Virus record (IMG/VR): IMGVR_UViG_3300020394_001068
Span: 1 to 48,106 of that record
Reading direction: 5' to 3' (one strand)
Origin: a virus
DNA: 48,106 nt
Part shown: piece by piece, positions 1,083 to 47,876 of the stretch
Numbering within the stretch: position 1 is the first letter of the stretch
Layout: the number at the start of each line of letters is the position of its first letter
Translations under genes and position numbers: made by a program
The notes under the pieces: generated by a model
Database searches by the model: none
What the model was told of the DNA's origin: nothing
What the model saw: the letters and a program-made list of their open reading frames with translations, nothing else

Positions 1083-2189
1083 ATGAGTATAAACAGAAAT
1101 TTAGCAAGCTTTGCGCCGAGTATTAATTCTTCTGGTAAGGCGGCAGTTGCCACGATAACGGTTACGGTTGCAGGTGGCAAATATTACATGGATGGTACGC
1201 AACAACAAACTGTTTCGCTTTCCAAAGGTATTACTTATCGCTTCGACAATTCTGATAGTACCAACAGTGGGCATCCCCTTGCGTTTTCCACAACATCAAA
1301 CGGAACACACGGAGGTGGGTCGGCTTTTACGACAGGGATTTCAACAAATGGAACTGCAGGTTCAAGTGGCGCGTATGTGGAAGTTACATTAGAGCAAGAC
1401 GCGCCAGATCATTTATATTACTATTGTACGAACCATAGTGGCATGGGCGGTCTTGTAAAAACTGCACCAGTTGGTGATGCAAATTTTGCAAGCTTTGCGA
1501 GTGCTTTTACATTTCCTACGTCTGACGGAAGTGCCTCACAAGTTTTACAGACGGACGGATCAGGAACCATCTCTTTCGGCACACCTGCGGCAAGTTATGG
1601 AAACAGTGATGTTGATAGTCACTTAAATTTTAGTAGCGCAACAAGCGGTCAAGTTCTTAGTTACAACGGTTCAGATTATGCTTGGATAAGCAATGCAGGT
1701 TATTCTGACAGTGATGTAAATACCCATCTTAATGTAAGCAGTGCAAGTTCAAACCAAATATTAAGTTGGAATGGTTCTGATTATGCTTGGGTAGATGATC
1801 AGAGCGGATCAGGTGGTATTGCAAGTGTTGCGGCTGATACGACGCCACAGCTTGGCGGTGATCTTGATGTGAACGGCAACGGTATTGTTTCAGCATCAAA
1901 TGGAAACATTGCAATTACACCAAATGGAACAGGAAAAATTATTTTAGATGGTTTATCTTTTCCAACGGCAGATGGAAGTGCTTCACAAGTTTTGCAAACT
2001 GATGGGTCAGGTCAGTTAAGCTTTGCTGATCAATCAGGAGGTTTGAGTGCTGTAAATAGTCACACAAAGACGCTAAGCTCGGATGTAACAGTCGCAGCGA
2101 CAGATAACGCTTTCTCAGTTGGTCCATTAACCGTATCAAGCGGTGTAACAATTACAATTTCCTCAGGGGCAAGATACGCAGTAATCTAA
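1083..2189 (+). CDS. tail fibre protein with a cupredoxin-like domain
   Basis: A 368-aa protein with a clear modular layout. Residues ~20-128 look like a plastocyanin/cupredoxin-type beta-sandwich: FDNSD..NSGHPL supplies His64, and YYYCTNHSGMGG supplies Cys115, His118 and Met121, the ligand set of type 1 copper sites. The rest is fibre-like: two copies of a DGSASQVLQTDGSG motif (near 148-161 and 297-310) and two copies of a DV..HLN....S..Q.LS.NGSDYAW unit (about 176-201 and 211-236). Its stop overlaps the next start (TAATG), so it is translationally coupled to the propeller array. The cupredoxin call is fold-level pattern recognition, and copper binding is not demonstrated. Confidence 0.75.
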   Translation: MSINRNLASFAPSINSSGKAAVATITVTVAGGKYYMDGTQQQTVSLSKGITYRFDNSDSTNSGHPLAFSTTSNGTHGGGSAFTTGISTNGTAGSSGAYVEVTLEQDAPDHLYYYCTNHSGMGGLVKTAPVGDANFASFASAFTFPTSDGSASQVLQTDGSGTISFGTPAASYGNSDVDSHLNFSSATSGQVLSYNGSDYAWISNAGYSDSDVNTHLNVSSASSNQILSWNGSDYAWVDDQSGSGGIASVAADTTPQLGGDLDVNGNGIVSASNGNIAITPNGTGKIILDGLSFPTADGSASQVLQTDGSGQLSFADQSGGLSAVNSHTKTLSSDVTVAATDNAFSVGPLTVSSGVTITISSGARYAVI

Positions 2190-3298
2190 TGACAGAACTT
2201 AAAGTAGATACAGTTGTAAATCTAGCAGGTACAGGTAAGCCCAACTTTGAAAATGGGATTACGGTCAATAGTGCCGCTACGTCTACGCTTAACCTAAATG
2301 AATATACTGAAAGTTCATCAGAGCCAAGCAGTCCAAGCAATGGTGCTTTGTGGTGGGATACTGCAAATGAGAAAACATTTATCTATGCAGAAGGTCAGTG
2401 GCGAGAAACAGTTGGTGTTTCGGCTGAAATAGTAAACGGTGGAACAAGAGGCTTTGCTTTTGGTGGCGATTACACCAATGTCATTGAATACGTTGATATT
2501 CAAACCGCAGGGAATGCAACAGATTTTGGCGATATGCAATCAACAGGAGAGGGAAAACCTGCAGGTGTAAGCAGTAAAACCAGAGGTGTAATGAGTGGTA
2601 ATGGTAATTGGATGGAAAATTATGAATATATTACCTGTGCCACTGCAGGTAATGCCACAAACTTTGGATCAACTTATCAAAATGACCAAAAGGGTCCTGC
2701 GTTTGTATCAGATGGTTCTCGCGGTGTTCTTGTCAGTGGTATAACAGATTATGAAAACTCTAATCATATGGAATATATAACCATAGACACAACTGGAAAC
2801 GGCACAAATTTTGGTAATCAAACTGTCACATCAACAGATAGAGCAGGTTGTGCGGATTCTACAAGAGGTGTAATCTTTGCAGGACAAAACACTAATGTTA
2901 TTGATTATATAACTATACAAACCACAGGAAATGCCACAGATTTCGGTGATTGTATTTATAGTGGAATAAGACATTCTGGGGCAACGGCAGACGCCACTAC
3001 TGGATTTCATATAGCAGGTGCCGATAGTTCTATGCAGGGTGAAATTCATTACGTTACTATCCAGACTACTGGCAACGCGGCCGATTGGGGCGATTTGTCT
3101 GTTGCGGCTTATGGGTGCGATGCATCTTCGGATGGAACCTACGTTTGTGTATTTTTTAGTCAAGCGAACACTGGGAGCATCAGTAATGCTAATAATATTG
3201 AAAGATTTTCAACAGCGAGCGCAGGTAATGCTTCGGATTTTGGTGATATGACAGTATCAAATGTAAGCCGTGGTTCATTATCAGGTAACGCTTCTTAG
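2189..3298 (+). CDS. six-repeat propeller-like fibre paralog 1 (adaptor type A)
   Basis: A 369-aa protein, first of six tandem paralogs. Residues 1-85 are a type A adaptor (KVDT.V..AGTGKPNF, then SSEPSSPSNG and a WWDTANEK strand), a module seen in many phage fibre proteins. The rest contains six ~46-residue repeats built around Y(I/V)TI.TTGNATDFGD and a following S..TRGV..GG segment. Six units with GG doublets suggest a six-bladed Kelch-like beta-propeller; this is inference. It is the most diverged member, with variants such as GNATNFG and GNAADWGD. The stop TAG at 3296-3298 lies inside the ribosome-binding site (TAGGAG) of the next gene. Confidence 0.75.
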   Translation: MTELKVDTVVNLAGTGKPNFENGITVNSAATSTLNLNEYTESSSEPSSPSNGALWWDTANEKTFIYAEGQWRETVGVSAEIVNGGTRGFAFGGDYTNVIEYVDIQTAGNATDFGDMQSTGEGKPAGVSSKTRGVMSGNGNWMENYEYITCATAGNATNFGSTYQNDQKGPAFVSDGSRGVLVSGITDYENSNHMEYITIDTTGNGTNFGNQTVTSTDRAGCADSTRGVIFAGQNTNVIDYITIQTTGNATDFGDCIYSGIRHSGATADATTGFHIAGADSSMQGEIHYVTIQTTGNAADWGDLSVAAYGCDASSDGTYVCVFFSQANTGSISNANNIERFSTASAGNASDFGDMTVSNVSRGSLSGNAS

Positions 3299-3307
3299 GA
3301 GAAAAAA

Positions 3308-4408
3308 ATGCCAGAAATAAAAGTTGATACAATTGTAGATGCGGCAGGGACAGGGAAACCAAATTTCTCAAATGGTATTACAATCAATGGCGCGGCAGTT
3401 TCTACGCTCAATATTGGTGAATATAACGCAAGTGGAACTGAACCAAGTTCTCCTCAAAATGGTTCTATTTGGTGGGATACAACTAACGAAAAAATCTTTG
3501 TGTATATTGATGGTGAATTTAAAGAAACGATTATTATTTCTTCCGCAGTTTGGTATGGGTCAAGAGGTGTAATGTGTGGTGGTACATACCCTGTTCAAAA
3601 TACGATGGATTACATTACAATTCAAACTACTGGTAATGCTACTGACTTTGGAGACCTTGATGTAACAAGAGAAGACCCAACTTGTTTTAGTGATGGTACG
3701 CAAGGATTTGCTGCTTGTGGTTATGACGGCAGTAGCAACACACAATCTGTTAGTTATTTTACTTTTGCAACAACGGGAAACGCCAGTGATTTTGGCGACA
3801 TGACAGTTACAAGAAATTATGGTGCAGGTGGAGCGTGTGATGGAACAAGAGGTTTAGTTGCAGGTAATGGATTATCTGGAAATGTTATTGATTACATAAC
3901 AACGGCCACCGCCTCTAATGGCTCAGATTTTGGAGACCTAACAGTAGCAGGTCGTGGTGCGGCAGGTGGAAATGATGCAACAAGAGCTTGTTTCGGTGGG
4001 AGACAAGGTGGCAGCATTGTAAATACAATTGATTACGTCACTATCCAAACTACAGGAAACGCAACAGATTTTGGGGATTTAACTTATGCAAGAAAATCTG
4101 GTTGTTCAGTATCGGATACAACAAGAATTTGTTTTGCAGGTGGTCAAGGTGCATCGTACTCAAACGTAATTGATTATATTACCACTCAAACCACAGGTAA
4201 TGCTACTGACTTTGGCGATGCAACACAGGCATTTGGTTGGTCAGGTGGGGGAATGTCTGATGCTAGTCGAGGTTGCTATCAATCTATGTCAGGCGGCAAT
4301 TATTCAAATGTAATAGAATATATTACGATACAAACAACAGGTAACGCGACAGACTTCGGTGATAGAACTAATTCATATTCTAATGTTGGAAGTTGTGCAG
4401 GTACTTAG
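3308..4408 (+). CDS. six-repeat propeller-like fibre paralog 2 (adaptor type A)
   Basis: A 366-aa paralog starting 9 nt after the previous stop. Its N-terminus (KVDTIVDAAGTGKPNF) matches that of the preceding gene, so genes 1 and 2 form a pair. The adaptor ends with SGTEPSSPQNG and WWDTTNEK, then WYGSRGVMCGG opens the repeat region. Six DFGD-containing repeats follow and the protein ends SCAGT. Repeats 1, 4, 5 and 6 are nearly canonical (TTGNATDFGD). The start is fixed by GGAG at 3298-3301, which overlaps the upstream stop. Likely a receptor-binding or decorating fibre subunit. Confidence 0.75.
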   Translation: MPEIKVDTIVDAAGTGKPNFSNGITINGAAVSTLNIGEYNASGTEPSSPQNGSIWWDTTNEKIFVYIDGEFKETIIISSAVWYGSRGVMCGGTYPVQNTMDYITIQTTGNATDFGDLDVTREDPTCFSDGTQGFAACGYDGSSNTQSVSYFTFATTGNASDFGDMTVTRNYGAGGACDGTRGLVAGNGLSGNVIDYITTATASNGSDFGDLTVAGRGAAGGNDATRACFGGRQGGSIVNTIDYVTIQTTGNATDFGDLTYARKSGCSVSDTTRICFAGGQGASYSNVIDYITTQTTGNATDFGDATQAFGWSGGGMSDASRGCYQSMSGGNYSNVIEYITIQTTGNATDFGDRTNSYSNVGSCAGT

Positions 4409-4417
4409 GAGAAATAT

Positions 4418-5542
4418 ATGTCAGAATTTGTTACAAGAAAAATTACGGATAGCGCAGGGACAGGCGCACCAAGTTTTACATACGGTCTTAATTCTGGCGG
4501 CTCTGATAGTGGTTTAATTGGCAAGGCTTTTACCTCATCAGGAACAGAACCATCTTCCCCTGCAAACGGTGACCTTTGGTATGACAGTGGCAATGATAAA
4601 TTATATTATTATGTAGCAGGTGAGTTTAAACAGATTACTCATGTCAATCCGTCTACTTTATGGTACGGGGATAGAGGTATTTTTGCAGGTGGTTATAATA
4701 ACAGCATCCCCGGCAAGCAAAATGTTATTCAATATATTGATATTACTTCTTCTGGCAATGCTACAGACTTTGGAGATTTATTAGCATCATTTTATGGTGC
4801 GGCAGGTTGTTCTGATGCAACCTATGGAGTTATTTTTGCAGGTAACGATGAAGTTCAAGACAGAGAAGAAATATCATATATCACCATTTCAACCACTGGA
4901 AACGCAACTGATTTTGGAGATTTAACAACTGGTATGGAGTCAGGGGCGGCTGCGGCCGATTCTACACGCGGTTTACACTTCGGCGGTGAACGTGTTGATG
5001 GAACTTATTATTCCAATAACATTGAATATATTACAATAGCATCTCCCTCTAATTCTACAGACTTCGGAGACCTATCGGTTTCTAGAAGGCAACTTGCAGC
5101 ATTAAGTAATGGCACAAGAGGCGTTACCGCAGGTGGTCAAGGTGCTTCGGCTTATAACAATGTCATGGATTATGTCGTTATCCAGACAACAGGTAACGCA
5201 ACTGACTTTGGTGATTTATTAGGCTCGAAAAAGAATATGGCAGGTGCAGGTGGCGATACCAGAGGATTGTTTGGGGGCGGCAGAAATTCAAGCAGCATTT
5301 TAGATCAAATAGAATATATTACGACAGACACAACTGGAAATTCTACAGATTTTGGAGATTTAGTAAGCGGTCAGCACATATTGTCTGCGGTTAATAATGC
5401 GACAACTGCAATTTTTGGTGGAGGTACTTCAAGTGATAGTTTGCAATCAGTAACAATAGCAACGACAGGAAATGCTTCTGATTTTGGTGATTTATCAGCG
5501 CAAACTTACGCCATGGCAAGTATGTCGGGGGCAGCCTCTTAG
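4418..5542 (+). CDS. six-repeat propeller-like fibre paralog 3 (adaptor type B)
   Basis: A 374-aa paralog, again 9 nt from its upstream neighbour with TAGGAG as combined stop and ribosome-binding site. The adaptor differs from genes 1 and 2: KITDSAGTGAPSFTYGLNSG, then SGTEPSSPANGDLWYD and GEFKQITHVN. WYGDRGIFAGG opens six repeats, some degenerate (ASPSNSTDFGD) and others canonical. The C-terminus is SGAAS. The change of adaptor combined with retention of six repeats suggests that different adaptors put similar propellers at different attachment sites; this is a hypothesis. Confidence 0.75.
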   Translation: MSEFVTRKITDSAGTGAPSFTYGLNSGGSDSGLIGKAFTSSGTEPSSPANGDLWYDSGNDKLYYYVAGEFKQITHVNPSTLWYGDRGIFAGGYNNSIPGKQNVIQYIDITSSGNATDFGDLLASFYGAAGCSDATYGVIFAGNDEVQDREEISYITISTTGNATDFGDLTTGMESGAAAADSTRGLHFGGERVDGTYYSNNIEYITIASPSNSTDFGDLSVSRRQLAALSNGTRGVTAGGQGASAYNNVMDYVVIQTTGNATDFGDLLGSKKNMAGAGGDTRGLFGGGRNSSSILDQIEYITTDTTGNSTDFGDLVSGQHILSAVNNATTAIFGGGTSSDSLQSVTIATTGNASDFGDLSAQTYAMASMSGAAS

Positions 5543-5551
5543 GAAGATAAA

Positions 5552-6655
5552 ATGAGTGATGCAGAAATTGAAAAGATAACAGACAGCGCAGGTACTGGTG
5601 CACCAAATTTTACTTATGGATTAAATAGCGGTGGGTCAGATAGCGGTCTTTTAGGTATTGCATACACGGCAAGCGGCACGGAGCCAACTTCCCCTGCGAA
5701 TGGGGATGTTTGGTTTGATACTGCAAATGACAAATATTACACTTATATCAATGGGGAATTTAAGCAGCTTACTCATGTAAATTTTGTACCTTCGACATGG
5801 TACGGTGCAAGGGCATTACACGTTGGAGGTTTATCATCAAATGCTATAGATTATTTTGATATTACTTCGACTGGTAATGCATCAGATTTTGGCAATTTGA
5901 CAAGTTCAAGAAGAACCGCAGGGTCAGTTTCCGATACAACTTATGGAGTTTTTGCAGGTGGATATACAAGCACTCATGTAAATACGATTGATTTTGTAAC
6001 CATAGCCACGACAGCCGATGCCGCAGATTTTGGAGACATGACTGCCGCAACAAGAGATCATATGGCACTTTCTAATGGTGATCGTGGGCTTTTTGCAGGG
6101 GGCTATGATGGTAGTACAACAAATAAAATTGAATATATTACTTTAGGTGGTCAAACATCAGGAAATGGTACAGATTTTGGTGATTTGACGCTTGCAAGAA
6201 AAGACAGTGAAGGCGGCATGAATGATGCTACTAGAGGCGTTTTTGCTGCAACTGCTTCTAATTACACGATGGATTATGTTACTATAGCCACAACAGGTAA
6301 TGCTACAGATTTTGGTGATGATAGTTTAAATAGAACTTATGCCGCTTCTACCTCAGGAGATACAAGGGGTGTAACAGGTGGTGGAAGTCTTATAAATGCT
6401 ATTAACTACATAACTATTCAAACAACTGGAAACTCTACAGATTTTGGAGACCTTTCAGTGAGCAGATACCAACTTGCAGCAACAAGCGACAATACATATG
6501 GAGTTTTCGCAGGTGGTTTTGATTATTATAATGGATTAAATACCATAGATAGAATTACGATAGCTACCACAGGCAATGCCACGGATCACGGAGACTTAAA
6601 CAAATCAGGTAATGCTCGAAGAATGGGTGGCATGACATCAGGCAGTGCTTCTTAG
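5552..6655 (+). CDS. six-repeat propeller-like fibre paralog 4 (adaptor type B)
   Basis: A 367-aa partner of gene 3, with the same adaptor signature (EKITDSAGTGAPNFTYGLNSG) and the same GEFKQLTHVN end. WYGARALHVGG opens the repeat region, and six DFG or DHGD repeats follow, one carrying a two-residue insertion (GGQTSGNGTDFGD) and one reading TTADAADFGD. The C-terminus is SGSAS. The spacing to both neighbours is again 9 nt. The TAGGAAG overlap with the upstream stop is slightly weaker than in the other pairs, which may tune the dosage of the second half of the array. Confidence 0.75.
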   Translation: MSDAEIEKITDSAGTGAPNFTYGLNSGGSDSGLLGIAYTASGTEPTSPANGDVWFDTANDKYYTYINGEFKQLTHVNFVPSTWYGARALHVGGLSSNAIDYFDITSTGNASDFGNLTSSRRTAGSVSDTTYGVFAGGYTSTHVNTIDFVTIATTADAADFGDMTAATRDHMALSNGDRGLFAGGYDGSTTNKIEYITLGGQTSGNGTDFGDLTLARKDSEGGMNDATRGVFAATASNYTMDYVTIATTGNATDFGDDSLNRTYAASTSGDTRGVTGGGSLINAINYITIQTTGNSTDFGDLSVSRYQLAATSDNTYGVFAGGFDYYNGLNTIDRITIATTGNATDHGDLNKSGNARRMGGMTSGSAS

Positions 6656-6664
6656 GAAAATTTA

Positions 6665-7783
6665 ATGAGTACAATAAAAGTAAATACAATTGATAATGAA
6701 GGCGGTGCAGTTGATTTCCCAAATAAATTAACGGTGCGCGGAAATGCAATTGAACGTACTTATACTTCATCAGGCACCGAGCCAAGTTCACCTTCTAACG
6801 GTGATTTTTGGTACGACACAGGAAATGATGTTTTAAAGCATTATATAAATTCTGAGTTCAAAACTATTTCTTTGAAAGCAGCATTTAGTTGGGGTGGGGC
6901 TAGAGGTCTTTTTTTTGGTGGTTTACTTAGCAACTTCTATAGCCTTTCAAATGTAATTGATTATATTACAATTGCGAGTGCAGGTAACGCAACTGATTTT
7001 GGTGATACGACTTCTGCAATACAGAATAGTTCTGGATTAAGTAATCGTTCAAGGGCGGTTTTTGGTGGTGGATATACCACTACGTATCAAAGTAACATCC
7101 AATATGTAGAAACAGCCACAACAGGAAATGGAACTAATTTTGGTGCCTTAACAGTAGCAAGGAATAACTCAGGTGCTTGTTCTGATGGAACATATGGATT
7201 GTTTGGTGGTGGATATACTGGCGCTGCTAGTGATACTATTGATTACATTACTGTTGCCACAACAGGAGATGCAACAGACTTTGGCAATCTAACGTCAGGT
7301 GCTTATGGTGTATCAGCTTTATCTGATGCAACTTATGGATTATTTGTATTAGGACGAACTGGAACTTATGTTTATGTAAATACGATTGATTACGTAACCA
7401 TTGCAACCACAGGTAATGCAAGTGATTTCGGAGATGCAACTGTTTCCCTTGGTTATAGAGCTTGTTGTTCTGATACGACAAGAGGAATTATCGCAGGTGG
7501 GGCTTCTGGTGGGACATCAACTTATGTAAACGTAATTGAATATGTTACTATAGCCTCAACTGGCAATGCAACTGATTTTGGCGATTTATCAGATGATGTT
7601 TCAGCAATGGCGGCAGTTTCAGATGGTACATATGGAGTGATAAGCCATGGTCTCAATGACAGTTATCAAATTGTAAATACGTTAGATACAATAACTATTC
7701 AAACCACGGGTAATGCCACGGATTTCGGTGATTTATCAGTAGCCAGAAGCAGGTTAACAGGGGCATCAGGCAATGCGTCTTAG
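6665..7783 (+). CDS. six-repeat propeller-like fibre paralog 5 (adaptor type C)
   Basis: A 372-aa paralog with a third adaptor type (KVNTIDNEGGAVDFPNKL followed by VRGNAIE), then SGTEPSSPSNGDFWYD and SEFKTISL. WGGARGLFFGG precedes six repeats (for example TIDYITVATTGDATDFGN). It ends ASGNAS. Upstream spacing is 9 nt, with TAGGA as stop plus ribosome-binding site. It pairs with gene 6: adaptor proteins are close, yet many synonymous third positions differ, which points to an old duplication under purifying selection rather than a recent copy. Confidence 0.75.
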   Translation: MSTIKVNTIDNEGGAVDFPNKLTVRGNAIERTYTSSGTEPSSPSNGDFWYDTGNDVLKHYINSEFKTISLKAAFSWGGARGLFFGGLLSNFYSLSNVIDYITIASAGNATDFGDTTSAIQNSSGLSNRSRAVFGGGYTTTYQSNIQYVETATTGNGTNFGALTVARNNSGACSDGTYGLFGGGYTGAASDTIDYITVATTGDATDFGNLTSGAYGVSALSDATYGLFVLGRTGTYVYVNTIDYVTIATTGNASDFGDATVSLGYRACCSDTTRGIIAGGASGGTSTYVNVIEYVTIASTGNATDFGDLSDDVSAMAAVSDGTYGVISHGLNDSYQIVNTLDTITIQTTGNATDFGDLSVARSRLTGASGNAS

Positions 7784-7792
7784 GAGAGAAAA

Positions 7793-8926
7793 ATGAGTAC
7801 ATTAAAAGTAAACACAATTAGCAATAAAGGTTCAGCGGTTGACTTTCCTAACAAGCTTAAAGTTAGAGGCAACGCAATTGAGCAGGGATATACAGCAAGC
7901 GGCACAGAACCATCTTCGCCAAGTGAGGGAGATTTCTGGTGGGATAGTACTAATAGTGTTCTTTATCAATATGTAAATAGTGAGTTTAAAACCATTTCTC
8001 TTGCTGCTTCTGGTATAACGTGGGGTGGAGATAGAGGGCTTCAAGCAGGCGGTGAGACTGCAAACAATGGATCGTCTGTAAACGTCATTTCTTATATTGA
8101 TATAACAACCACAGGGAACGCTACTGACTTTGGTGATTTATCAAATGCTAGAGAGCATTCGGGAGGATTAAGCAATCAAACAAGAGGCGTATTTTGTGGT
8201 GGCGATTCTAGTGGTTCTAATCAAGATGTAATGGATTTGGTTACTATTGCTACCGCAGGCAATGCAACAGATTTCGGAAACCTACAACGTGCAAAAACTG
8301 GAACAAACGCAGCAAGTTCGGATGGAACAACAGGAATAATTGCAGGTGGATATACCTCTGGTAGTTATCCTAGTAGTTATTTAGATGAAATAGATAAAAT
8401 TACAGTTGCAACTTCAGCAGACGCAACTGATTTCGGTGATTTAAATTACAATGGTGGATATATGACATCTTTTGCTGATGCAACAAGAGGTGTTATTGCA
8501 GGTGGATATACTACAGCAGGGTCTGGTGATGCGACAATGGAGTATATCACCTATGCTTCCGCAGGTAATGCTACAGATTTTGGTGACCTGACAGAAGGAA
8601 GATATTTGGCAGGTAGTTTTTCCGATACAACCCGAGGCGTTATTGGGGGTGGTTCTACACCTTCGTCAAACGGTGTTAATACAATCGATTATGTCACAAC
8701 GCAAACAACAGGCAACGCAACCGATTTTGGCGATCTGACGCAAGGAAGAAGAACGTGCGGAATGGGAAATAATACACGAGGGGTTTTTGGAAGTGGTGAT
8801 ACTAATTCAACATTTTATAATATTATGGATTATGTAACGATCCAAACAACAGGTAACGCTACAGATTTTGGTGACAATACTGGCACCTATGGTAAATCTG
8901 GAGCGTGTTCAGGTAACGCATCTTAG
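7793..8926 (+). CDS. six-repeat propeller-like fibre paralog 6 (adaptor type C)
   Basis: A 377-aa paralog, the last of the array. The adaptor is type C (KVNTISNKGSAVDFPNKL, VRGNAIE), then SGTEPSSPSEGDFWWD. WGGDRGLQAGG opens six repeats, the fifth and sixth almost canonical (TTGNATDFGD). It ends CSGNAS. The stop TAG at 8924-8926 is embedded in an unusually strong AGGAGG that serves the next gene, which starts with TTG. It has the longest repeat loops of the set, which is where receptor contacts would be expected if this is a propeller. Confidence 0.75.
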   Translation: MSTLKVNTISNKGSAVDFPNKLKVRGNAIEQGYTASGTEPSSPSEGDFWWDSTNSVLYQYVNSEFKTISLAASGITWGGDRGLQAGGETANNGSSVNVISYIDITTTGNATDFGDLSNAREHSGGLSNQTRGVFCGGDSSGSNQDVMDLVTIATAGNATDFGNLQRAKTGTNAASSDGTTGIIAGGYTSGSYPSSYLDEIDKITVATSADATDFGDLNYNGGYMTSFADATRGVIAGGYTTAGSGDATMEYITYASAGNATDFGDLTEGRYLAGSFSDTTRGVIGGGSTPSSNGVNTIDYVTTQTTGNATDFGDLTQGRRTCGMGNNTRGVFGSGDTNSTFYNIMDYVTIQTTGNATDFGDNTGTYGKSGACSGNAS

Positions 8927-8936
8927 GAGGTCAAGT

Positions 8937-9755
8937 TTGACAAACGTAGTAACAAAACCAATAACTTTTTCTTTGCCAGTAGAAGCAAGTAAAAATATCA
9001 ATCAAGTTGCAGCCGCAAAAGTTGCCGAAAAATTGCCAGAAATTGCAAAAGCTACTAGGGCATTTGATAGGAATAATTCACAGACAACATTAAATATGAT
9101 GACATTGACAATGCTCAACGGTCATTCCCCTTATAGAATGTTGCGGCAGATTACAGCAGAAGTTGAAAAAAGAGAAAATGCATTAAATGAAGCGCAGGTT
9201 ACTCATGCTGAAATACGCATGGAAATTATTGAACTAGAAGGTTCAAGCGATGCAGTGAGTGAAGCAAAGCTTCGACAGAAGCGGCACAATCTTATTCAAA
9301 TGGAAAATAAAATAAACGGCTCAATAAAAGATATTGCTACGCTTATTGATAGTTATGATAACATCAAAGAAAATTATGGGATTGATGAATGGGATGAAGT
9401 TGCTTTTGAAAGAGAAGAAAAGCGGCATCATGTCCGCAGAGGCTTTGAACTTATGTATCGGAATTTAATGGACGGTGGTAGAGCTTCCACAGCAACCATT
9501 GAATATATGCAACAATACGGAGTGCATCCACAGTTAGCTTTGACAGAAGTTTCTGGGTATATCAAGGTAACGGCAGAACGGATTGCGAAAAAAGAGTTGC
9601 TACACAGCAATGATCTGGAAAGCTTTTTAGATCAAATGGCAGATAAGTATTATAAAAATGCAGACATTACCGCAGAAAGAATTTTTGGTAAGGCAGATTT
9701 TCTTAATACAGATTATATGTTACAACTTGAAAAGTCTAAGGAGTCAAAAGAATGA
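8937..9755 (+). CDS. helical structural protein of unknown function, TTG start
   Basis: The frame is open from 8868, but the credible start is TTG at 8937. AGGAGG at 8925-8930 lies 6 nt upstream, and starting there avoids a long overlap with the previous gene. The 272-aa product (MTNVVTKPITF...) is mostly charged and alpha-helical. Heptad-like stretches lie around residues 75-160 (EVEKRENALNEAQ, LIQMENKINGS), consistent with a coiled coil. It is not related to the beta-rich fibre proteins next to it. Position between the propeller array and a small conserved gene suggests a virion or fibre-assembly role, but I do not recognise the family. Confidence 0.75.
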   Translation: MTNVVTKPITFSLPVEASKNINQVAAAKVAEKLPEIAKATRAFDRNNSQTTLNMMTLTMLNGHSPYRMLRQITAEVEKRENALNEAQVTHAEIRMEIIELEGSSDAVSEAKLRQKRHNLIQMENKINGSIKDIATLIDSYDNIKENYGIDEWDEVAFEREEKRHHVRRGFELMYRNLMDGGRASTATIEYMQQYGVHPQLALTEVSGYIKVTAERIAKKELLHSNDLESFLDQMADKYYKNADITAERIFGKADFLNTDYMLQLEKSKESKE

Positions 9756-10064: not shown

Positions 10065-11546
10065 ATGTTTGGATTTGCGCCAGTCGCATCAGCACCGATT
10101 GCGGATGATGCTGTAAGCGAAATTGCAATAACGCCAAGCAGCATTGTCTTGGGAACACCTGCAATTGGGTCAGTTACATTTACGCAAGTCCATTCACTCA
10201 CAGCAACATCAGTTGTCTCTGGTGCTCCTGTTGTGCAATCAAGCACAGCAACAATCATTAATGTTATCACGGCAAGTTCACTGCTCACTGGCGCGTCTGT
10301 GGTCGCAAATACATCTATTGTATCCGAACACGCATTAATCTGTTCAAACGTAGCGTGTGCGCCACCACAAGCTGCTTCTACTGCGATAACGCAAAAACAT
10401 GACCTCACACCTCAAAGTGTTGTTTCTGGCTCTCTCAGTGCGCCTACAATCAATATGGGTGAGGATGAAACATTCACAACACCTTCTTTGACGGCAGGTG
10501 TTCCGTCTGTTCCAACATTATCACTTACCGTTGAACACTCATTAACTGCTTCTTCTGTGGAGTCAGGAAACGTTGTTGTTGCATCTGTTGCAATGACAGA
10601 AGATGAGACCTTGACACCAACAAGTGTGACTTCGGGATCATTTGATGTTGGTTCAACCGCAATAGTCGGTACTCATACACTTACAGCTTCCAGCGTCTTA
10701 TCAGGAACGCCAATAGCAAATAATGCTAATATGGCTGAATATGAGACACTTACAACATCTGATCTTGATGCAGGTGAACCACAGGTCGGAAGTCCTGCAT
10801 TTGTATCGCAACAATCACTCACACCTTCTTCTGTTGAAGCGTCTGCGGCTAGTGTTGCTTCTGTTGCACTAACACAAGAACACACTTTAACAGCAACAAG
10901 TGTACAAGCATCTGCGCCTGTTGTTTCATCAATTGACCTTACAGAAGTTATTCCACTTACTGCTAATTCTATTGAAACCAACAATCCAAGTGTTGGCACA
11001 ACAACCATTACTCAAAACACCGCATTGACTGCATCTGCAATTGCAACAGGAACACCTATTGTTTCAAGCGTCAATATGGCTGAAGATGAAACTTTTGTTC
11101 TGGATAGTGTTTCATCGGTTGCACCAAATGTTGCCACAACATCAATAACACAAGTTCATGTCTTAACAGCAACAAGCGTTGCGGCAGCAAGTCCAGTTGT
11201 AGACTCGATAGCAATGTCAGAAGCAGAAACACTTGTCCCTGTAAGTGTTGTATCTGGCACACCTGCACTGCCAGATAATATTTTCCCTGCATTACCAGAA
11301 GGCCAGTTGCCATTAGACACTGTTGAAGGTGGCAATCCGATTGTTGGAACACCTGCGGCAACAATAAATATTGTGTTAACTGCAAGCAATATAGTAAGTG
11401 GAACGCCAACTATTCCAACGCTTGTTTATGATATTGGATTAGCAGGTCGCGTAAATGCAGGTACGGCTGTTCCAAATTCAGTAGAAGCAGACGATAGTAT
11501 TAATACCGCAGACATTGATAATGACGGAATAAATTCTGTCAGTTAG
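10065..11546 (+). CDS. virion protein made of about eighteen 23-residue repeats
   Basis: A 493-aa protein that is almost entirely a tandem repeat. Each unit is 23 residues and follows LTA(T/S)SV.SG.P.V.S..(I/M).... with a charged or His-containing end (for example TQVHS or AEDET). I count about seventeen to eighteen units, the penultimate one stretched by a Pro-rich insert (FPALPEGQLPLD). The C-terminal ~40 residues leave the pattern and end in an acidic Asp/Asn-rich segment. Regular 23-residue beta-type repeats suggest an elongated fibre or beta-solenoid stalk. It has no Cys-rich or catalytic motif. Exact role unknown. Confidence 0.7.
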   Translation: MFGFAPVASAPIADDAVSEIAITPSSIVLGTPAIGSVTFTQVHSLTATSVVSGAPVVQSSTATIINVITASSLLTGASVVANTSIVSEHALICSNVACAPPQAASTAITQKHDLTPQSVVSGSLSAPTINMGEDETFTTPSLTAGVPSVPTLSLTVEHSLTASSVESGNVVVASVAMTEDETLTPTSVTSGSFDVGSTAIVGTHTLTASSVLSGTPIANNANMAEYETLTTSDLDAGEPQVGSPAFVSQQSLTPSSVEASAASVASVALTQEHTLTATSVQASAPVVSSIDLTEVIPLTANSIETNNPSVGTTTITQNTALTASAIATGTPIVSSVNMAEDETFVLDSVSSVAPNVATTSITQVHVLTATSVAAASPVVDSIAMSEAETLVPVSVVSGTPALPDNIFPALPEGQLPLDTVEGGNPIVGTPAATINIVLTASNIVSGTPTIPTLVYDIGLAGRVNAGTAVPNSVEADDSINTADIDNDGINSVS

Positions 11547-26291: not shown

Positions 26292-26336
26292 ATGAAAAAT
26301 GTATGTATTGTAGTTACAAAAATTGGGAGAAATATT

Positions 26337-27029
26337 GTGATAACAGAAACCTACAAACGTAAAATGTTCACTCATAAAAATAGAAGTTTTGTTGTACGAG
26401 AGGGCACAAGTGATAGTTTTGTAGTTAAAGAAGTTTCTGGAAGTGCATACAATAAATTAAAACTTTATCCGCAAGATGTTTGTTTAGACATCGGTTTAAA
26501 TATTGGTGTATTTTCAGTTATTGCATCTGAAAAATGTAAGTTTGTATATTCGTTTGAACCAGAACCAGAAAATTTTGAATTGGCGAGTAAAAACGTTTCT
26601 TTAAATAAAAGAGAAAATGTAAAATTATATAATGTTGCTGTTATTGGTAATAACGACAAGAAAAGGTATCTGTCGATTAATAAAAAGAAAAATAAAGGTT
26701 GTCATTCTTTGATACCGAAAAGAGGTCGCGGTTCGCAGACAGTAGATTGTAAAGAAATAAATAAAATTATCAAAGAAACAAATCCGTCTGTAATGAAAGT
26801 TGATACAGAGGGTGCAGAGTTCGAAATATTAATGGCAATTGAACCAGCAAATATTAAAAAATTTAGAGAGATAATTTTTGAATTTCACCATGCTCACTTG
26901 AACGATATTGATACAAGAGAAAAATATCGTGCATTAATTTCATTCCTTAAAAAGTTTTTCAAAAAGGTTCATTATCGTGAAGAAACAAAAGGTGCATGGG
27001 TAAGTAACGTATACTGTACAAATGCATAG
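26337..27029 (+). CDS. FkbM-family methyltransferase
   Basis: The frame is open from 26292, next to the terminator, but GTG 26337 has GGGAGA 6 nt upstream and is preferred (ATG 26364 is a third option). The product is about 230 aa with a Rossmann methyltransferase core: VCLDIGLNIGVFSV (SAM-binding motif I, Asp51), FEPEPENF as the acidic loop, and VMKVDTEGAEFEIL near residue 150. FkbM proteins methylate hydroxyl groups of sugars and other small molecules. Here it heads a cluster with a glycosyltransferase and a cytidylyltransferase, so a modified sugar or DNA-linked group is a reasonable target; this is inferred. Confidence 0.85.
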   Translation: MITETYKRKMFTHKNRSFVVREGTSDSFVVKEVSGSAYNKLKLYPQDVCLDIGLNIGVFSVIASEKCKFVYSFEPEPENFELASKNVSLNKRENVKLYNVAVIGNNDKKRYLSINKKKNKGCHSLIPKRGRGSQTVDCKEINKIIKETNPSVMKVDTEGAEFEILMAIEPANIKKFREIIFEFHHAHLNDIDTREKYRALISFLKKFFKKVHYREETKGAWVSNVYCTNA

Positions 27030-27037
27030 GTAGATAA

Positions 27038-27700
27038 ATGAGCAAACAAGAAAAATGGCCTGCAACAAAAATAGTTTTATTTGAAACTGATAAATTAATC
27101 CCGTATGCACGAAACAGCAGAGTTCATAGCACTGAACAAATTGCACAAATAGCAGCAAGCATCCAAGAATGGGGATTTACAGTTCCGATTCTTATTGACG
27201 AAAAAAATACCTTGATTGCAGGTCACGGCAGGCTTCTGGCTGCACAGAAGTTAGAATTGAAAAAAATACCAGTTATGATTGCAAAAGGTTGGTCAGATGC
27301 TCAAAAACGTGCGTATGTCATAGCAGATAATAAATTAGCAATTAATGCAGAATGGGATGAAGAGCTTTTAAAAGTTGAAATAAAACAATTAGAATTAGAA
27401 AAGTTTGATATTTCTACAATGGGTTTTGAATTAGATGAACTGACTGACTTATTTTTAGATAAAGATTTTGGCGAGACAGATGCATTTGATGAATGGCAAG
27501 ATATGCCAGAATACGACAATGAAAATCTAGATTATTTTAGAACAATAAAAATACATTTTGATAATCAAGAAGATGTCAATTTATTTGCAGAAAAGACTGG
27601 TTTACCACTTACTGAGGCAACAAGATTTATAAGATTTCCAGAACCAGCAAGAACAGATTTAGATGCTTATCGAGTCCACGGAGACGAAAGTGAAACCTGA
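27038..27700 (+). CDS. ParB/Srx-like domain protein
   Basis: A 220-aa protein with a ParB N-terminal-type domain: KLIPYARNSRVHSTEQIAQIAASIQEWGFTVPILID, then LIAGHGRLLAAQKL (GHGR at 62-65) and KRAYVIADNKL. ParB-type folds of this class often occur with DNA methyltransferases in phages, but no methylase domain is attached here. The C-terminal third (DYFRTIKIHFDNQEDVNLFAEKTGLP) is a separate small domain. It has no partition partner (no ParA), so a role in genome modification or nucleotide-dependent DNA binding is more likely. It overlaps the next gene by 11 nt. Confidence 0.8.
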   Translation: MSKQEKWPATKIVLFETDKLIPYARNSRVHSTEQIAQIAASIQEWGFTVPILIDEKNTLIAGHGRLLAAQKLELKKIPVMIAKGWSDAQKRAYVIADNKLAINAEWDEELLKVEIKQLELEKFDISTMGFELDELTDLFLDKDFGETDAFDEWQDMPEYDNENLDYFRTIKIHFDNQEDVNLFAEKTGLPLTEATRFIRFPEPARTDLDAYRVHGDESET

Positions 27701-28604
27701 GTTTCCTCTGTATATCCCAAGTAAGGGACGTGCAGAATATATGATGACTTCAAAAGCACTTACAATGATGAAGGTTCCGCATTACATAATTGTAGAACCA
27801 CAAGAATTAGACGAGTATGCAAAAGCAATTAAACATTGGGATTTGCTTACAACAATTATACCACTGGATATGTCTTACAAAGAAAAATACGAGCTTTGTG
27901 ATGAATTAGGACTTGAAAAAAGCACTGGCGCAGGACCTGCACGTAATTTTGCTTGGGAACATTCTAAAACTTACGGATTTGCTTGGCATTGGGTAATGGA
28001 TGATAACATTAAATATTTTCATCGTTTCAATAAAAATTTACAAGTTAAAGTTACCGATGGCACTTGTTTCAAAGTAATGGAAGATTTCGTACAACGATAT
28101 ACAAACATTGGAATGGCAGGTCCAAATTACATGATGTTTGCACCACGAAAAACAAGGTTGCCACCATTCGTTCTAAATACAAGAATTTACAGCTGTAATT
28201 TAATACGAAACGAACTCAAATATCGGTGGCGTGGTAGATATAACGAAGATACAATTTTATCGTTAGATATTTTAAAAGCAGGTTGGTGTACTACACAATT
28301 TAATGTTTTTCTCCAAGAAAAAACAAATACGCAGGTTATGAAAGGTGGCAATACAGACGAGTTTTATCATAAAGAAGGAAGCGTTCAAGCTGGTGACAGA
28401 TATGCAGATACTGGAACATTAGAAAAATCTAAAATGCAAGTAAAGGTACATCCCGATTGTTCAAGATTGGTAAAAAAATATGGCAGATGGCATCATCATG
28501 TAGATTACAATAGATTTAAAAAACAAAAATTGATTCGCAGAACCGATATTGATTGGACAGGTCAAGTAAAAGATTATGGCATGAAAATGGTTAAGGTTAG
28601 ATGA
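27690..28604 (+). CDS. TET-associated-type glycosyltransferase
   Basis: The start is probably GTG 27690, with GGAG at 27679-27682; the frame is also open further upstream. The 304-aa product fits the TAGT family: FPLYIPSKGRAEY at the N-terminus, a middle GPARNFAWEH and WVMDDNIKYF (the D-D-N metal and sugar-nucleotide site, Asp104, Asp105, Asn106), and later EKTNTQVMKGGN. Known family members glycosylate oxidised methylcytosine in phage DNA. No TET/JBP oxygenase or cytosine methylase was found in this window, so the acceptor is unclear. Family assignment is good, acceptor uncertain. Confidence 0.75.
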   Translation: MKPEFPLYIPSKGRAEYMMTSKALTMMKVPHYIIVEPQELDEYAKAIKHWDLLTTIIPLDMSYKEKYELCDELGLEKSTGAGPARNFAWEHSKTYGFAWHWVMDDNIKYFHRFNKNLQVKVTDGTCFKVMEDFVQRYTNIGMAGPNYMMFAPRKTRLPPFVLNTRIYSCNLIRNELKYRWRGRYNEDTILSLDILKAGWCTTQFNVFLQEKTNTQVMKGGNTDEFYHKEGSVQAGDRYADTGTLEKSKMQVKVHPDCSRLVKKYGRWHHHVDYNRFKKQKLIRRTDIDWTGQVKDYGMKMVKVR

Positions 28605-44046: not shown

Positions 44047-44452
44047 TTTAGACATGTTAAACAAATATATAGCAGAAGTAAAAAATAAACCTTTTCAGTG
44101 GTTTGAGCATGATTGTTTAACATTTACCAATAATGCTTTTAAACAAATGTATGGAAAAGGTTGGGCTGATGATTGGCTTTCAAAGTATCACGAAAATGGT
44201 GAGCCGTTTAAAAGAGATAAACTTAGAAAAATATTCAATGCACAAACAATTGAAGATGCAATTGATCAAAAATTGCAGAGAATTGATTTTGTACCGCCAA
44301 AGGGGTCTTTGGTTTTAACTGATAAAGCAAGGCAATGGGTCATTGGAAAAGCAATGGGAATTGCAATTGGAAATGATGCAATATTTGTTTCAGATCAAGG
44401 ACTGAATGCAATGCCAATTGAATATATTACTGATGCTTGGATTAACCCATGA
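44021..44452 (+). CDS. DUF6950-like tail-tip cell-wall peptidase candidate
   Basis: The frame is open from 43994; ATG 44021 (143 aa) or 44033 are the better starts, with GAGAGA just before 44021. The product begins HPNLDMLNKYIAEVKNKPFQWFEHDCLTFTNNAFKQMYGKGWADDW, in which the HDC..F..NA block is the DUF6950/NlpC-P60-like Cys motif. A C-terminal GNDAIFVSDQGLNAMPIEY could supply the rest of the active site. This gene slot holds the GTA gp14-type wall peptidase that opens peptidoglycan during DNA entry. Catalysis is inferred. Confidence 0.7.
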   Translation: MSVAMKHPNLDMLNKYIAEVKNKPFQWFEHDCLTFTNNAFKQMYGKGWADDWLSKYHENGEPFKRDKLRKIFNAQTIEDAIDQKLQRIDFVPPKGSLVLTDKARQWVIGKAMGIAIGNDAIFVSDQGLNAMPIEYITDAWINP

Positions 44453-47400
44453 AATACCAATTAGGTGATTTTACTGTAAAATATTGGAATAGTTGGGAAA
44501 GAGTTCCACGTTCACCTGCACAAATCGGCTTTGCGATTATGGGTCAACTTGGAATAATGGTAAGCACAACAGTAGCAGTTTTTGTGGGTTTGGCTACCAT
44601 TGCGGCTGTTTCTTACATTGCACGAGCACTGATGCCAAAGTTTGATACAGATGCATTTGGATCAAGCAGTGGTTTGATGACCAATACAAGAACAGCAACT
44701 GCGCCTCAAGAACTTGTATATGGCACAATTCGTAAAGGCGGTATAATAACATATCTTGAGTCAACTGGAACAACAAATGAATATCTACATCAAATAATTT
44801 GTCTTGCAGGGCATGAAGTAAATCAAATTGGTGATATTTATATTAATGATCAGATTGTTAGTTTAGACTCTGATGGCAATGTTACAACATCGACATGGCA
44901 AGATAATGATGGTAATTCTACTATCTTAATAAAAAAATTTACTGGTGCAGCAAATCAAAATGTTTACACAACCTTAAATGCTCTTTCCAATGGTCCTAGT
45001 TGGGCAAATGGCGCAAGTGGTGATGATACAAATTTCCGTGGTCAAGGAATAGCATGTCTGTATATACGTCTTAAATATGATCAAAATGTTTTTACACAAG
45101 GTGTTCCATTATTCACAGCATTGGTGCAAGGCAAAAAGGTTTACGATCCAAGATCCTCATCTACTGCTTTTTCTGCAAATGCAGCGTTATGCATTAGGGA
45201 CTATTTAACATCAAAATATGGATTAAATAATGCCACAGCTATCAATGATACGGTTTTCTCTACTGCCGCAAATACTTGTGATGAAACTGTATCTCTTAGC
45301 GGTAGTGGGAACGAAAAAAGATACGAAATAAATGGTGTGCTTTCTTTAGATAGACAACCAAAAGACATTTTGGGAGATATGGTTGCTGCATGTGCTGGAA
45401 CACTTTTTTGGGGTCAAGGTGAATGGCAATTGAAAGTAGGTGAATATACTACTGCTGTCAAAACACTGACCTTATCAGATTTTAGAAGTGATGTTTCCAT
45501 AATTACAAAACATTCCAGACGAGACAATTTTAATATTGTTCGCGGAACATTTAATGATAGTAGCGCAGATTATATAAGATCAGATTATCCAGAAATAAAA
45601 AGTTCAACATTCATAGCTAATGATGCAGGTGTAGAAAATGCATTAGATTTGCCATTACCACTTACAACATCAAGTGCAATGGCACAAAGACTTGCAAAAT
45701 TGACATTGTTTCGCGCAAGAGAACAAATGACTGTTTCCGCAGATTTTAGTTTAGCAGCATTAGAGGTTCAGGTCGGAGACATAATAGGAATAACAAATTC
45801 AAGATATGGATGGAGTGCCAAAGATTTTGAGGTTATCGGTTGGAAATTAAAAAATGATAGAGATGGTGGAGAATTAGCAGTTTCACTTACATTACGTGAA
45901 ACATCATCAGCAGCATTTTCATGGTCAGCAGAGGAAGCAGATTTAAAATCAAATGACAGTAATTTACCAAGTCTGACTGATAATTTAACAATTTCCAGTT
46001 TATCAACTTCTGGTGGTGGCAGAACACAAGCTGATGGAACTTTTATAAATAGTGTAATTGTTTCTTGGACTGCACCAAATAATTCTTTTATTTCTCATTA
46101 TGAAGTAGAACATAAAGCAACGGCAGATAGTAATTACCAGTCTACAACAACTCCCGAAACAAGTATTGAATTAACACCACTTGTTGATGGCGTAGAATAT
46201 CAAATAAGAGTAAGAGCTGTAACTGTACAAGGGAATAAGGGACCATTTGCAACAACAACCTTCACTGGCGGTGGTGATACTACCGCACCAAGTCTACCCA
46301 CATCTATCTCTGCCACTGGGGGTTTTAAATTTATAACAATAAACTGGACAAACCCTGCAGATGCAGATTTGAATTTTGTTGAAATTTATGAAAATACCAC
46401 AAATAGCTCAAGCGGTGCGACAAAGGTCGGTGTTTCTGGTGGTTCTACCTTTACGCGCACAGGCTTAAATTTAAATCAAACAAGATACTATTTCTTAAAG
46501 GCAGTTGACTTTTCGGGCAACGCATCAGCGTTTACAACGGGGGTATCAGCAACAACTACATATTTAGACGATCCAGATTTTGAGAACGGCATAAGACAAA
46601 TATTTATTGATGCAGGTTTAGATATGATTGAACCTGTTTCTTCATTGCCGACAAGCGGTGATTTTGTTGGTCAAAATGTATATCTTACAACAAATGATCA
46701 GCTTTATGCTTGGGATGGGTCAAATTGGAATACAGCCGCAGGTGGAGCAAGTAGCTTCTCTGAGTTGTCAGGTTCTATTGCAGCAAGTCAAATACCTGAT
46801 GGCACAATTGCAACAGCTAAAATTGCTGATGACGCAATCACGGCTGCAAAGATAGCAGCAAACGCAATTGGTGCAAATGAAATAGCCGCAAATTCTATCA
46901 CCACAAACAAGATAGCAGCTAATCAAATAACAGGCGGTCTCATTGCATCATCAGGTATTATTACAAGTACAGCGCAAATAAATGACGCAATAATTACCGC
47001 AGCAAAAATTCAAGATTTAGCGGTTACAAGTGCGAAAATCGGAGATTTAGATGCTTCGAAAATTACCGCAGGTGAGCTTGACGTAGAGCGTTTTCCTGCA
47101 TTGGGTCAGGCAAATACTACCATTTTTAGTAACAGTCTTACTAGAAATGGTACGGCAGCATCTGTCACTGTTTCGTTTTCTGGCGTAAAAGTAGGTGCGG
47201 ACGTAATTGTTGTTGGACAGATTGGTGGTCACGCGAATAATGTTGAAAGTCCTTATTTAAGAGTAACCCCCAGTTCCTCCAACGTTACTTTAGCTAGTAC
47301 GTCTTATAGAGATTTGAAAGCAAAAGAGGGTAGTATCACAATAAACCCACTAAGAGAATTTCAACCGATGGTAATGACTGGTACGACAACCTCCACCAGT

Positions 47401-47493
47401 GGATCGGTAGGTTTTTCAATACAGTTACGAGGGAATGATAGCGGTGGTGGAGGGTCACAAGGCACTATCGCAGTTTTAGTATTGTCAGGTTAA
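44449..47493 (+). CDS. J-like tail tip / host-attachment hub protein
   Basis: A 1014-aa tail-tip protein. The N-terminus has a hydrophobic segment (TVAVFVGLATIAAVSYIARALMPKFD, ~42-66), then a J-type beta-rich body (PQELVYGTIRKGGIITYL, EVNQIGDIYINDQIV). Two fibronectin type III-like domains follow near 518-605 and 616-702 (VIVSWTAPNN and ITINWTNPADADLNFVEIYE). A repetitive segment (~785-880) carries AKIADDAITAAKIAANAIGANEIAANSITTNKIAANQI, consistent with a trimeric fibre stalk, and the protein ends in a ~120-residue terminal domain. It is comparable to lambda gpJ and contacts the receptor or caps the tail tip. It overlaps the peptidase gene by 4 nt. Confidence 0.88.
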   Translation: MKYQLGDFTVKYWNSWERVPRSPAQIGFAIMGQLGIMVSTTVAVFVGLATIAAVSYIARALMPKFDTDAFGSSSGLMTNTRTATAPQELVYGTIRKGGIITYLESTGTTNEYLHQIICLAGHEVNQIGDIYINDQIVSLDSDGNVTTSTWQDNDGNSTILIKKFTGAANQNVYTTLNALSNGPSWANGASGDDTNFRGQGIACLYIRLKYDQNVFTQGVPLFTALVQGKKVYDPRSSSTAFSANAALCIRDYLTSKYGLNNATAINDTVFSTAANTCDETVSLSGSGNEKRYEINGVLSLDRQPKDILGDMVAACAGTLFWGQGEWQLKVGEYTTAVKTLTLSDFRSDVSIITKHSRRDNFNIVRGTFNDSSADYIRSDYPEIKSSTFIANDAGVENALDLPLPLTTSSAMAQRLAKLTLFRAREQMTVSADFSLAALEVQVGDIIGITNSRYGWSAKDFEVIGWKLKNDRDGGELAVSLTLRETSSAAFSWSAEEADLKSNDSNLPSLTDNLTISSLSTSGGGRTQADGTFINSVIVSWTAPNNSFISHYEVEHKATADSNYQSTTTPETSIELTPLVDGVEYQIRVRAVTVQGNKGPFATTTFTGGGDTTAPSLPTSISATGGFKFITINWTNPADADLNFVEIYENTTNSSSGATKVGVSGGSTFTRTGLNLNQTRYYFLKAVDFSGNASAFTTGVSATTTYLDDPDFENGIRQIFIDAGLDMIEPVSSLPTSGDFVGQNVYLTTNDQLYAWDGSNWNTAAGGASSFSELSGSIAASQIPDGTIATAKIADDAITAAKIAANAIGANEIAANSITTNKIAANQITGGLIASSGIITSTAQINDAIITAAKIQDLAVTSAKIGDLDASKITAGELDVERFPALGQANTTIFSNSLTRNGTAASVTVSFSGVKVGADVIVVGQIGGHANNVESPYLRVTPSSSNVTLASTSYRDLKAKEGSITINPLREFQPMVMTGTTTSTSGSVGFSIQLRGNDSGGGGSQGTIAVLVLSG

Positions 47494-47495
47494 AA

Positions 47496-47876
47496 ATGGA
47501 TTACACAATTTATACTTCAGATGGGTCATACTTTGGAACACTTACTTGTTCGCAAGAAAGTCTAGCACCCATGATCCCTGAGGGTGGTTTTTACGTAGAA
47601 GGTCATCAGCATACATTATCTACTTGTGTAAATGGAATATTGTCAACTCCAAGTGATGCAGAAATAGAGACACAAACTTACGATTTGTACTTAGAAGGGT
47701 TCAGAGAAGAACGAAATAAACGGTTAGCAGATACAGATTGGACGCAAGTTTCAGATAGCCCTTTATCCGATAGCAAAAAAACAGAATGGCAGACGTATCG
47801 TCAAGCACTACGCGATATGCCATCACAAGAGGGGTTTGATCCTCTAAATCCAACGTATCCAACTGAACCATCTTAG
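47496..47876 (+). CDS. tail fibre assembly chaperone-like protein (APC type)
   Basis: A 126-aa protein. The second half contains GFREERNKRLADTDWTQVSDSPLSDSKKTEWQTYRQALRDMPSQEGFDPLNPTYP, the pattern of the Phage_tail_APC family, which acts in folding or assembly of tail fibres. The N-terminal ~55 residues (DYTIYTSDGSYFGTL and GGFYVEGHQHTLSTC) are a beta-rich part. The neighbours are the J protein and fibre genes, which supports the assembly role. It is followed by a 69-nt gap with the ribosome-binding site (GGAG) of the next fibre gene. Confidence 0.75.
   Translation: MDYTIYTSDGSYFGTLTCSQESLAPMIPEGGFYVEGHQHTLSTCVNGILSTPSDAEIETQTYDLYLEGFREERNKRLADTDWTQVSDSPLSDSKKTEWQTYRQALRDMPSQEGFDPLNPTYPTEPS

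Follow-up and report, generated by a model that had tools for sequence, protein, structure and literature searches.

The viral record IMGVR_UViG_3300020394_001068 (48,106 nt; the window, by which we mean this whole stretch) carries an array of six paralogous genes, each of which joins a short N-terminal adaptor to a repeat domain predicted to fold as a Kelch propeller. In this lambda-like marine siphovirus, the array probably encodes a multi-part receptor-binding apparatus, with the adaptors as fixed mounting slots, the Kelch propellers as exchangeable tips, and all slots co-assembling. The evidence comes from the comparison with related loci and contigs (given L-numbers below), where entire propellers have been exchanged at the point where adaptor and propeller meet, in some cases from one slot to another.

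The six open reading frames (g1 to g6, or slots A1, A2, B1, B2, C1 and C2) lie on the plus strand at 2189-3298, 3308-4408, 4418-5542, 5552-6655, 6665-7783 and 7793-8926, and encode 369, 366, 374, 367, 372 and 377 amino acids (aa), respectively. In each, an adaptor (2189-2434, 82 aa in g1; 3308-3550; 4418-4660; 5552-5797; 6665-6889; 7793-8020) precedes six DFGD-type repeats (2435-3295; 3551-4405; 4661-5539; 5798-6652; 6890-7780; 8021-8923), giving 36 repeats overall with a few degenerate copies (e.g. NFGS, DWGD, DHGD). The initial annotation, made from the letters alone, had described six consecutive genes of 366-377 aa at 2189-8926, each with an adaptor and six repeats; coordinates, lengths and repeat number were all borne out, and the adaptor measured 75-82 aa. 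An independent contig (L009/L087) carries the same six genes in the same order with 99-100% identity.

The adaptors fall into three pairs. Their identity is 60%, 75% and 73% within pairs A, B and C and 32-45% between pairs, while the six propellers are 39-49% alike without any useful pairing. When all 15 possible pairings were scored, AA/BB/CC ranked top for the adaptors (mean 69.6%; runner-up 53.7%) and was indistinguishable for the propellers (47.3% vs 46.9%). Pairing therefore belongs to the adaptors, and a pairing of whole genes was rejected. In an adaptor tree of 64 genes from 16 related arrays, A, B and C (g1 belonging to clade A) form three clean clades; the slots of g2 to g6 were assigned from this tree together with the identities. 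Thus, the order A,A,B,B,C,C read by eye in the initial annotation agrees with the identities and the best-pairing score, and its proposal that one operon holds two copies of each of three adaptor lineages is confirmed by the tree, which finds them in related viruses too. Its expectation that separate trees would group pairwise stood for the adaptors, which group by type, and failed for the propellers, which do not.

A comparison of the locus across related viral contigs, which the initial annotation had also proposed, revealed the swapping. Between the window and its near relative L010, adaptors in register are 90, 82, 88, 95, 88 and 88% identical in slots 1-6, and the propellers only 40, 38, 43, 50, 50 and 45%. 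Two L010 propellers are those of window g3 and g4 moved one slot on, the g3 propeller being 95% identical to that of L010 g4 (slot B2) and the g4 propeller 90% identical to that of L010 g5 (slot C1); the other four are unrelated. The g6 propeller is 61-64% identical to those of L010 slots B1 and A1, and the g1 propeller reaches about 70% with slot A of L170/L171. At the DNA level, the flanks are 89-93% and all six adaptors about 90% identical between the window and L010, and identity drops at the adaptor end in every one of the six genes, the first poor 60-nt window beginning at codon 61-69. L091 and L088 also keep their adaptors slot by slot, with no in-register propeller above 54%; over L010, L091 and L088 together, the ranges against the window are 79-95% for adaptors and 38-54% for propellers.

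The same separation appears in the 64 genes of the 16 arrays. The slot label changes twice on the adaptor tree (the minimum; 30.5 when shuffled) and 24 times on the propeller tree (30.4 when shuffled). Mean identity within and across slots is 68% and 43% for adaptors, and 45.1% and 43.9% for propellers, which have almost no slot signal. Among the 23 between-virus propeller pairs with at least 60% identity, 17 share a slot type and 6 do not; such a same-slot bias with occasional slot hopping would follow from recombination guided by adaptor DNA of the same type. Homologous recombination would then use two conserved stretches, the adaptor DNA on the upstream side and the start of the next gene on the downstream side. 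Other sources of diversity were considered and rejected. Blade shuffling does not fit, as identity runs roughly evenly along exchanged propellers with no blade-level chimeras, and neither does concerted evolution within a genome, as propeller identity within a virus (44.8%) equals that between viruses. Diversification driven by a retroelement was set aside since the record has no reverse transcriptase (no RVT_1 match; a template repeat of a diversity-generating retroelement was not searched for).

For the fold of the repeat domain, we modelled g5 with AlphaFold2 from an alignment of 80 sequences. The model consists of all-beta repeats with a mean predicted local distance difference test score of 92.7 and a predicted template modelling score (pTM) of 0.83. 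Foldseek matched it to the six-bladed Kelch domains of KLHL12 and Keap1 (E about 1e-18, target TM 0.87, 13% identity) over about 290 columns with a root-mean-square deviation of about 2.5. The repeat domain is thus predicted to be a closed six-bladed Kelch propeller with four-stranded blades, in line with the "propeller-like" repeats suggested at first. None of the six proteins matched a Kelch family of Pfam at E<=1, so the assignment rests on the predicted fold and not on a sequence family. KLHL12 and Keap1 share the fold (TM 0.85-0.90, six blades) but differ in sequence (10-16% identity), in repeat consensus (TGNATDFGD in the window) and in context, and no function beyond loop binding can be transferred from them. 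Across 876 aligned blades, TGNATDFGD is nearly fixed, and columns 22-28 (after GG) and those around 4-7 vary most, as would be expected if a constant frame carried variable binding loops. In the monomer model, residues 1-30 of the g5 adaptor have low confidence, which would fit folding with partners. A sequence search of solved structures with the propeller returned nothing significant, and its matches among PHROG families, phrog_19111 and phrog_26444, are both listed as of unknown function, as is phrog_1409, matched by a helical gene described below (E between 4e-13 and 4e-3 for the three). Besides, the propellers end in a short family-specific motif, which is SGNAS, SGAAS or CSGD in the window and near relatives and CSNGHGGL in most other propeller families; it is perhaps a closing strand or a chaperone tag.

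The adaptors persist even where the C-terminal domain is of another kind. L195 (4895-7972), L178, L188 and L194 have all three adaptor types (A, B and C) but no Kelch-type repeats, the repeat domain of L195 being SGL/lactonase-like and ending in YQYSTGL. Several arrays that seem to have two genes in fact retain a third slot gene with a different C-domain: in members of the fn3/GVW adaptor family, the adaptor of one slot is kept, and in place of the propeller it carries a glycine-rich domain (L064:8551-9453), DUF7483 (L133:5631-7679) or an unassigned domain (L057:11210-12055). It follows that the slot is defined by the adaptor.

Directly behind the array, a phrog_1409-like gene (8937-9755, plus strand) encodes a 272-aa protein judged helical from its sequence; the gene uses TTAGGAGG and has TTG as its start codon. 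Of 101 non-redundant propeller loci, 91 have this gene nearby, in most cases as the immediate neighbour, and it is absent from all five examined A/B/C arrays without Kelch propellers, some of which are close relatives. In loci fetched with the helical gene itself as query (its nearest relatives), a propeller lies directly upstream in 66 of 67. The gene therefore tracks the Kelch propeller and not the adaptor, and we infer a candidate propeller-specific chaperone, assembly or docking factor, which would fold or dock the propellers. A search of solved structures gave no informative or significant match for it.

The junctions within the array follow one plan. Between g1 and g2 (3296-3307, plus strand), the TAG stop lies within the Shine-Dalgarno sequence (TTAGGAG or close variants) and a 9-nt spacer follows; the plan is repeated at 4406, 5540, 6653 and 7781. 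The fixed spacing places all six genes in one reading frame. Read-through of the stops into a polyprotein was considered and rejected, because the fixed stop position within the Shine-Dalgarno sequence explains the common frame; in other lineages, where the starts overlap, the genes do not share a frame. Stops inside the Shine-Dalgarno sequence suggest translational coupling across the array, which would make matched amounts of the A, B and C proteins.

The window shows the gene set of a lambda-like siphovirus, with terminase (30099), portal (31256), major head protein (36239), tape measure (40875), distal tail protein (42860), a lambda J-like central tail fibre (44449-47490; phrog_31/5616) and a tail-fibre-assembly-like protein (47496-47873; phrog_4912, E=9e-20), the last two on the plus strand. 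Two further plus-strand genes precede the array: a tail-fibre-like protein (360-1073; phrog_2710, E=3e-9) and a candidate fibre connector (1083-2189; phrog_677, "baseplate wedge tail fiber protein connector", E=2e-18), which is 93% identical at the nucleotide level in L010, lies directly upstream and overlaps the start of g1. A stretch of the connector candidate also resembles plastocyanin weakly (PF00127, below cut-off). From this position beside tail genes, the six proteins are putative tail fibre or receptor-binding proteins. The assembly protein has its L010 homologue just upstream of the array (2633-3013), so in the real genome the two ends of the window probably meet; the J-like fibre would then lie just upstream of the array and is presumed to be the platform for its proteins. 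The J protein is 44% identical to that of Roseobacter phage CRP-811, whose annotation has no such array beside J. Elsewhere in the record, a 493-aa protein with short degenerate repeats (LTATSVVSGAPVV; 10065-11546) is conserved 3' of the array in near relatives, and no family was found for it; methyltransferase-like and beta-glucosyl-HMC-alpha-glucosyltransferase-like genes (26292-28604) possibly serve DNA modification.

To summarize array size, we collected 33 complete non-redundant A/B/C arrays from adaptor-based searches, after removing two spurious entries; the set includes two arrays with a disrupted gene and one three-gene array without Kelch propellers. It turned out that 19 contain three genes, four contain six, two contain five, two contain four, one contains seven and five contain two, and two further six-gene arrays (L247, L155) lie near contig ends. 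In a wider sample with unrelated adaptor families, arrays of exactly three genes make up 24 of the 53 complete propeller arrays. Most three-gene arrays run ABC, and L016 has ACB; the window clade has AABBCC and L247/L155 AABCBC. Automatic A/B/C labelling gives a wrong name to the middle slot in arrays of the L014/L025 type, in which the second adaptor is a type of its own. The array is thus built on a basic A,B,C triplet, which AABBCC doubles. The initial annotation had noted neither this triplet nor the movement of propellers over constant adaptors, the other domains that slots can carry or the helical gene that goes with the propellers. In the adaptor tree, the L247/L155 duplicates cluster together, apart from those of the window (Shimodaira-Hasegawa-like approximate likelihood ratio test 94-98), indicating at least two independent doublings of all three types. 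L101 (3302-13236) has nine propeller genes in a row, with adaptors that seem to form three groups of three, and L129 has an array of about nine propeller genes of another kind. Propeller genes also occur on contigs labelled as a Porticoccaceae metagenome-assembled genome (MAG) (L155, a six-gene array), Epulopiscium (L158), a Thermoprotei MAG (L161) and Desulfobacter vibrioformis DSM 8776 (L162), which are possibly prophages or stray viral contigs.

Several observations weigh against the multi-part apparatus as set out above. Array size is not strict, since arrays of 2, 4, 5 and 7 genes occur (L253, L187, L197, L182, L175, L258, L174), and single-gene propeller fibres exist; because of these array sizes, a strict rule of multiples of three was weakened to a preference. 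Our samples lean towards relatives of the query sequences, and arrays that are related do not count as independent, which inflates the counts; for these reasons the counts show a preference and not a law. A single-chain AlphaFold2 model of the natural in-frame A-B-C triplet of L011 (TAG read as Q) reached a pTM of 0.37 with disordered adaptor N-termini, a result confounded by a four-residue tether and an input of only 17 sequences. No match was found when a phage collection was searched by tblastn for cultured relatives with the window propeller, the L043 middle-slot gene of another family and the helical gene. Metagenomic assembly error is possible in such repeats; this worry is countered by swapped propellers that differ by 5-10% and by the recurrence of the window order on L009/L087.

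In the proposed apparatus, each adaptor would mount one slot, the Kelch propeller presumably binds the host surface, and all slots would be needed together, with A:B:C units co-assembling. A symmetric homotrimeric J hub offers no easy place for three adaptors that are not equivalent, unless they join each other, side by side or in series. The simplest form would be a heterotrimeric stalk with three different propellers, doubled to 2:2:2 in the window virus. We put forward only tentatively, as one possible form, that the fibres are obligate heterotrimers (six-protein when doubled) in which each chain has its own slot adaptor and a different Kelch propeller, served by a dedicated propeller chaperone. 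A system of this kind is reported from virophage DSLV2, where three paralogous tail genes lie next to one another in strictly conserved positions; their products reportedly co-purify in a 1:1:1 heterotrimeric complex and have relatives in Synechococcus phages (PMC12724248). The window shares the adjacent paralogous genes with positional orthology, in a doubled form, but the DSLV2 proteins (196-247 aa) have a gp37-tip-like fold, belong to a virophage capsid fibre and lack Kelch propellers.

Joining in series would instead give stacked or branched homotrimers, with A on the tail, B on A and C on B, as in the tiered tailspikes of Ackermannviridae. There, in phages such as CBA120 and S117 (TSP1-4), conserved N-terminal slot domains carry C-terminal receptor domains that are exchanged by homologous recombination (PMC11414711, PMC7506556), and the tip of one slot can be replaced by that of another (PMC11414711). 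Both systems thus combine several receptor-binding proteins with conserved slots and exchangeable tips, and a tiered fibre would explain the distinct, ordered, slot-conserved adaptors, tolerate arrays of 4, 5 or 7 genes and suit the connector gene upstream of the array. It gives no reason to expect that arrays favour three or six genes or that all types are doubled jointly, and the adaptors (only about 80 aa) had no Pfam match and no identified gp10-like linking domain, the XD domains not having been searched for specifically. The systems also differ: tailspikes, XD/TD (gp10-like) linking domains and four unequal slots there; Kelch propellers, mutually related adaptors, three slots with doubling and a lambda-like siphovirus here. 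The triplet preference favours the side-by-side heterotrimer, and the exceptions in array size leave room for a branched tower; we regard stacked homotrimers as rather unlikely.

The initial annotation had left it between one virion with several specificities and a population that chooses among them. A bank of alternative receptor-binding proteins, competing for the same attachment sites so that tips differ between virions, would account for propellers that are highly diverse in one genome (mean 44.8% identity) and traded between viruses. However, such a bank would not need slot-specific adaptors conserved in register at 79-95% in every close relative, nor balanced numbers of A, B and C, and all genes here are intact and closely spaced with the Shine-Dalgarno sequence overlapping the stop. 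The orthologous retention of every slot favours co-assembly in one virion, and a bank seems improbable. Ordinary tandem duplication with drift, in which the paralogues have no division of roles, would also yield head-to-tail paralogues with adaptor pairs, but it is already disfavoured and very improbable given that the adaptors of different viruses are orthologous in each slot, that only the tips are replaced and that three- and six-gene arrays recur in unrelated adaptor families.

Kelch propellers themselves have been reported in tailed phages. Jumbo phage CBB encodes the Kelch-domain proteins CBB_550, 552 and 554, one of which was detected in virions (PMC5259590), and we found structural matches similar to them in PhiPA3, Noxifer and BcepSaruman. 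These are also six-bladed Kelch-type propellers, several per genome, but from other phages with low sequence identity and with no A/B/C adaptor system described. In the literature, no description of the present array was found, which is weak evidence since only open-licence papers were covered. The logic of the array is known from Ackermannviridae, and the Kelch-tipped A/B/C slot array itself is, as far as could be found, undescribed.

Phage host range is usually pictured as one fibre and one receptor. The array points to a common marine architecture in which the mounting parts stay constant and whole binding tips are traded between slots and viruses. If the fibres are indeed obligate heterotrimers, one fibre tip would display three to six independently exchangeable specificities. 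Besides, the work offers a predicted fold and a putative role for PHROG families listed as of unknown function, together with a candidate chaperone. The array may therefore serve as a system, readable from sequence, for the combination of receptor specificities per virion, for obligate hetero-oligomer fibres and for host change in uncultured viruses.

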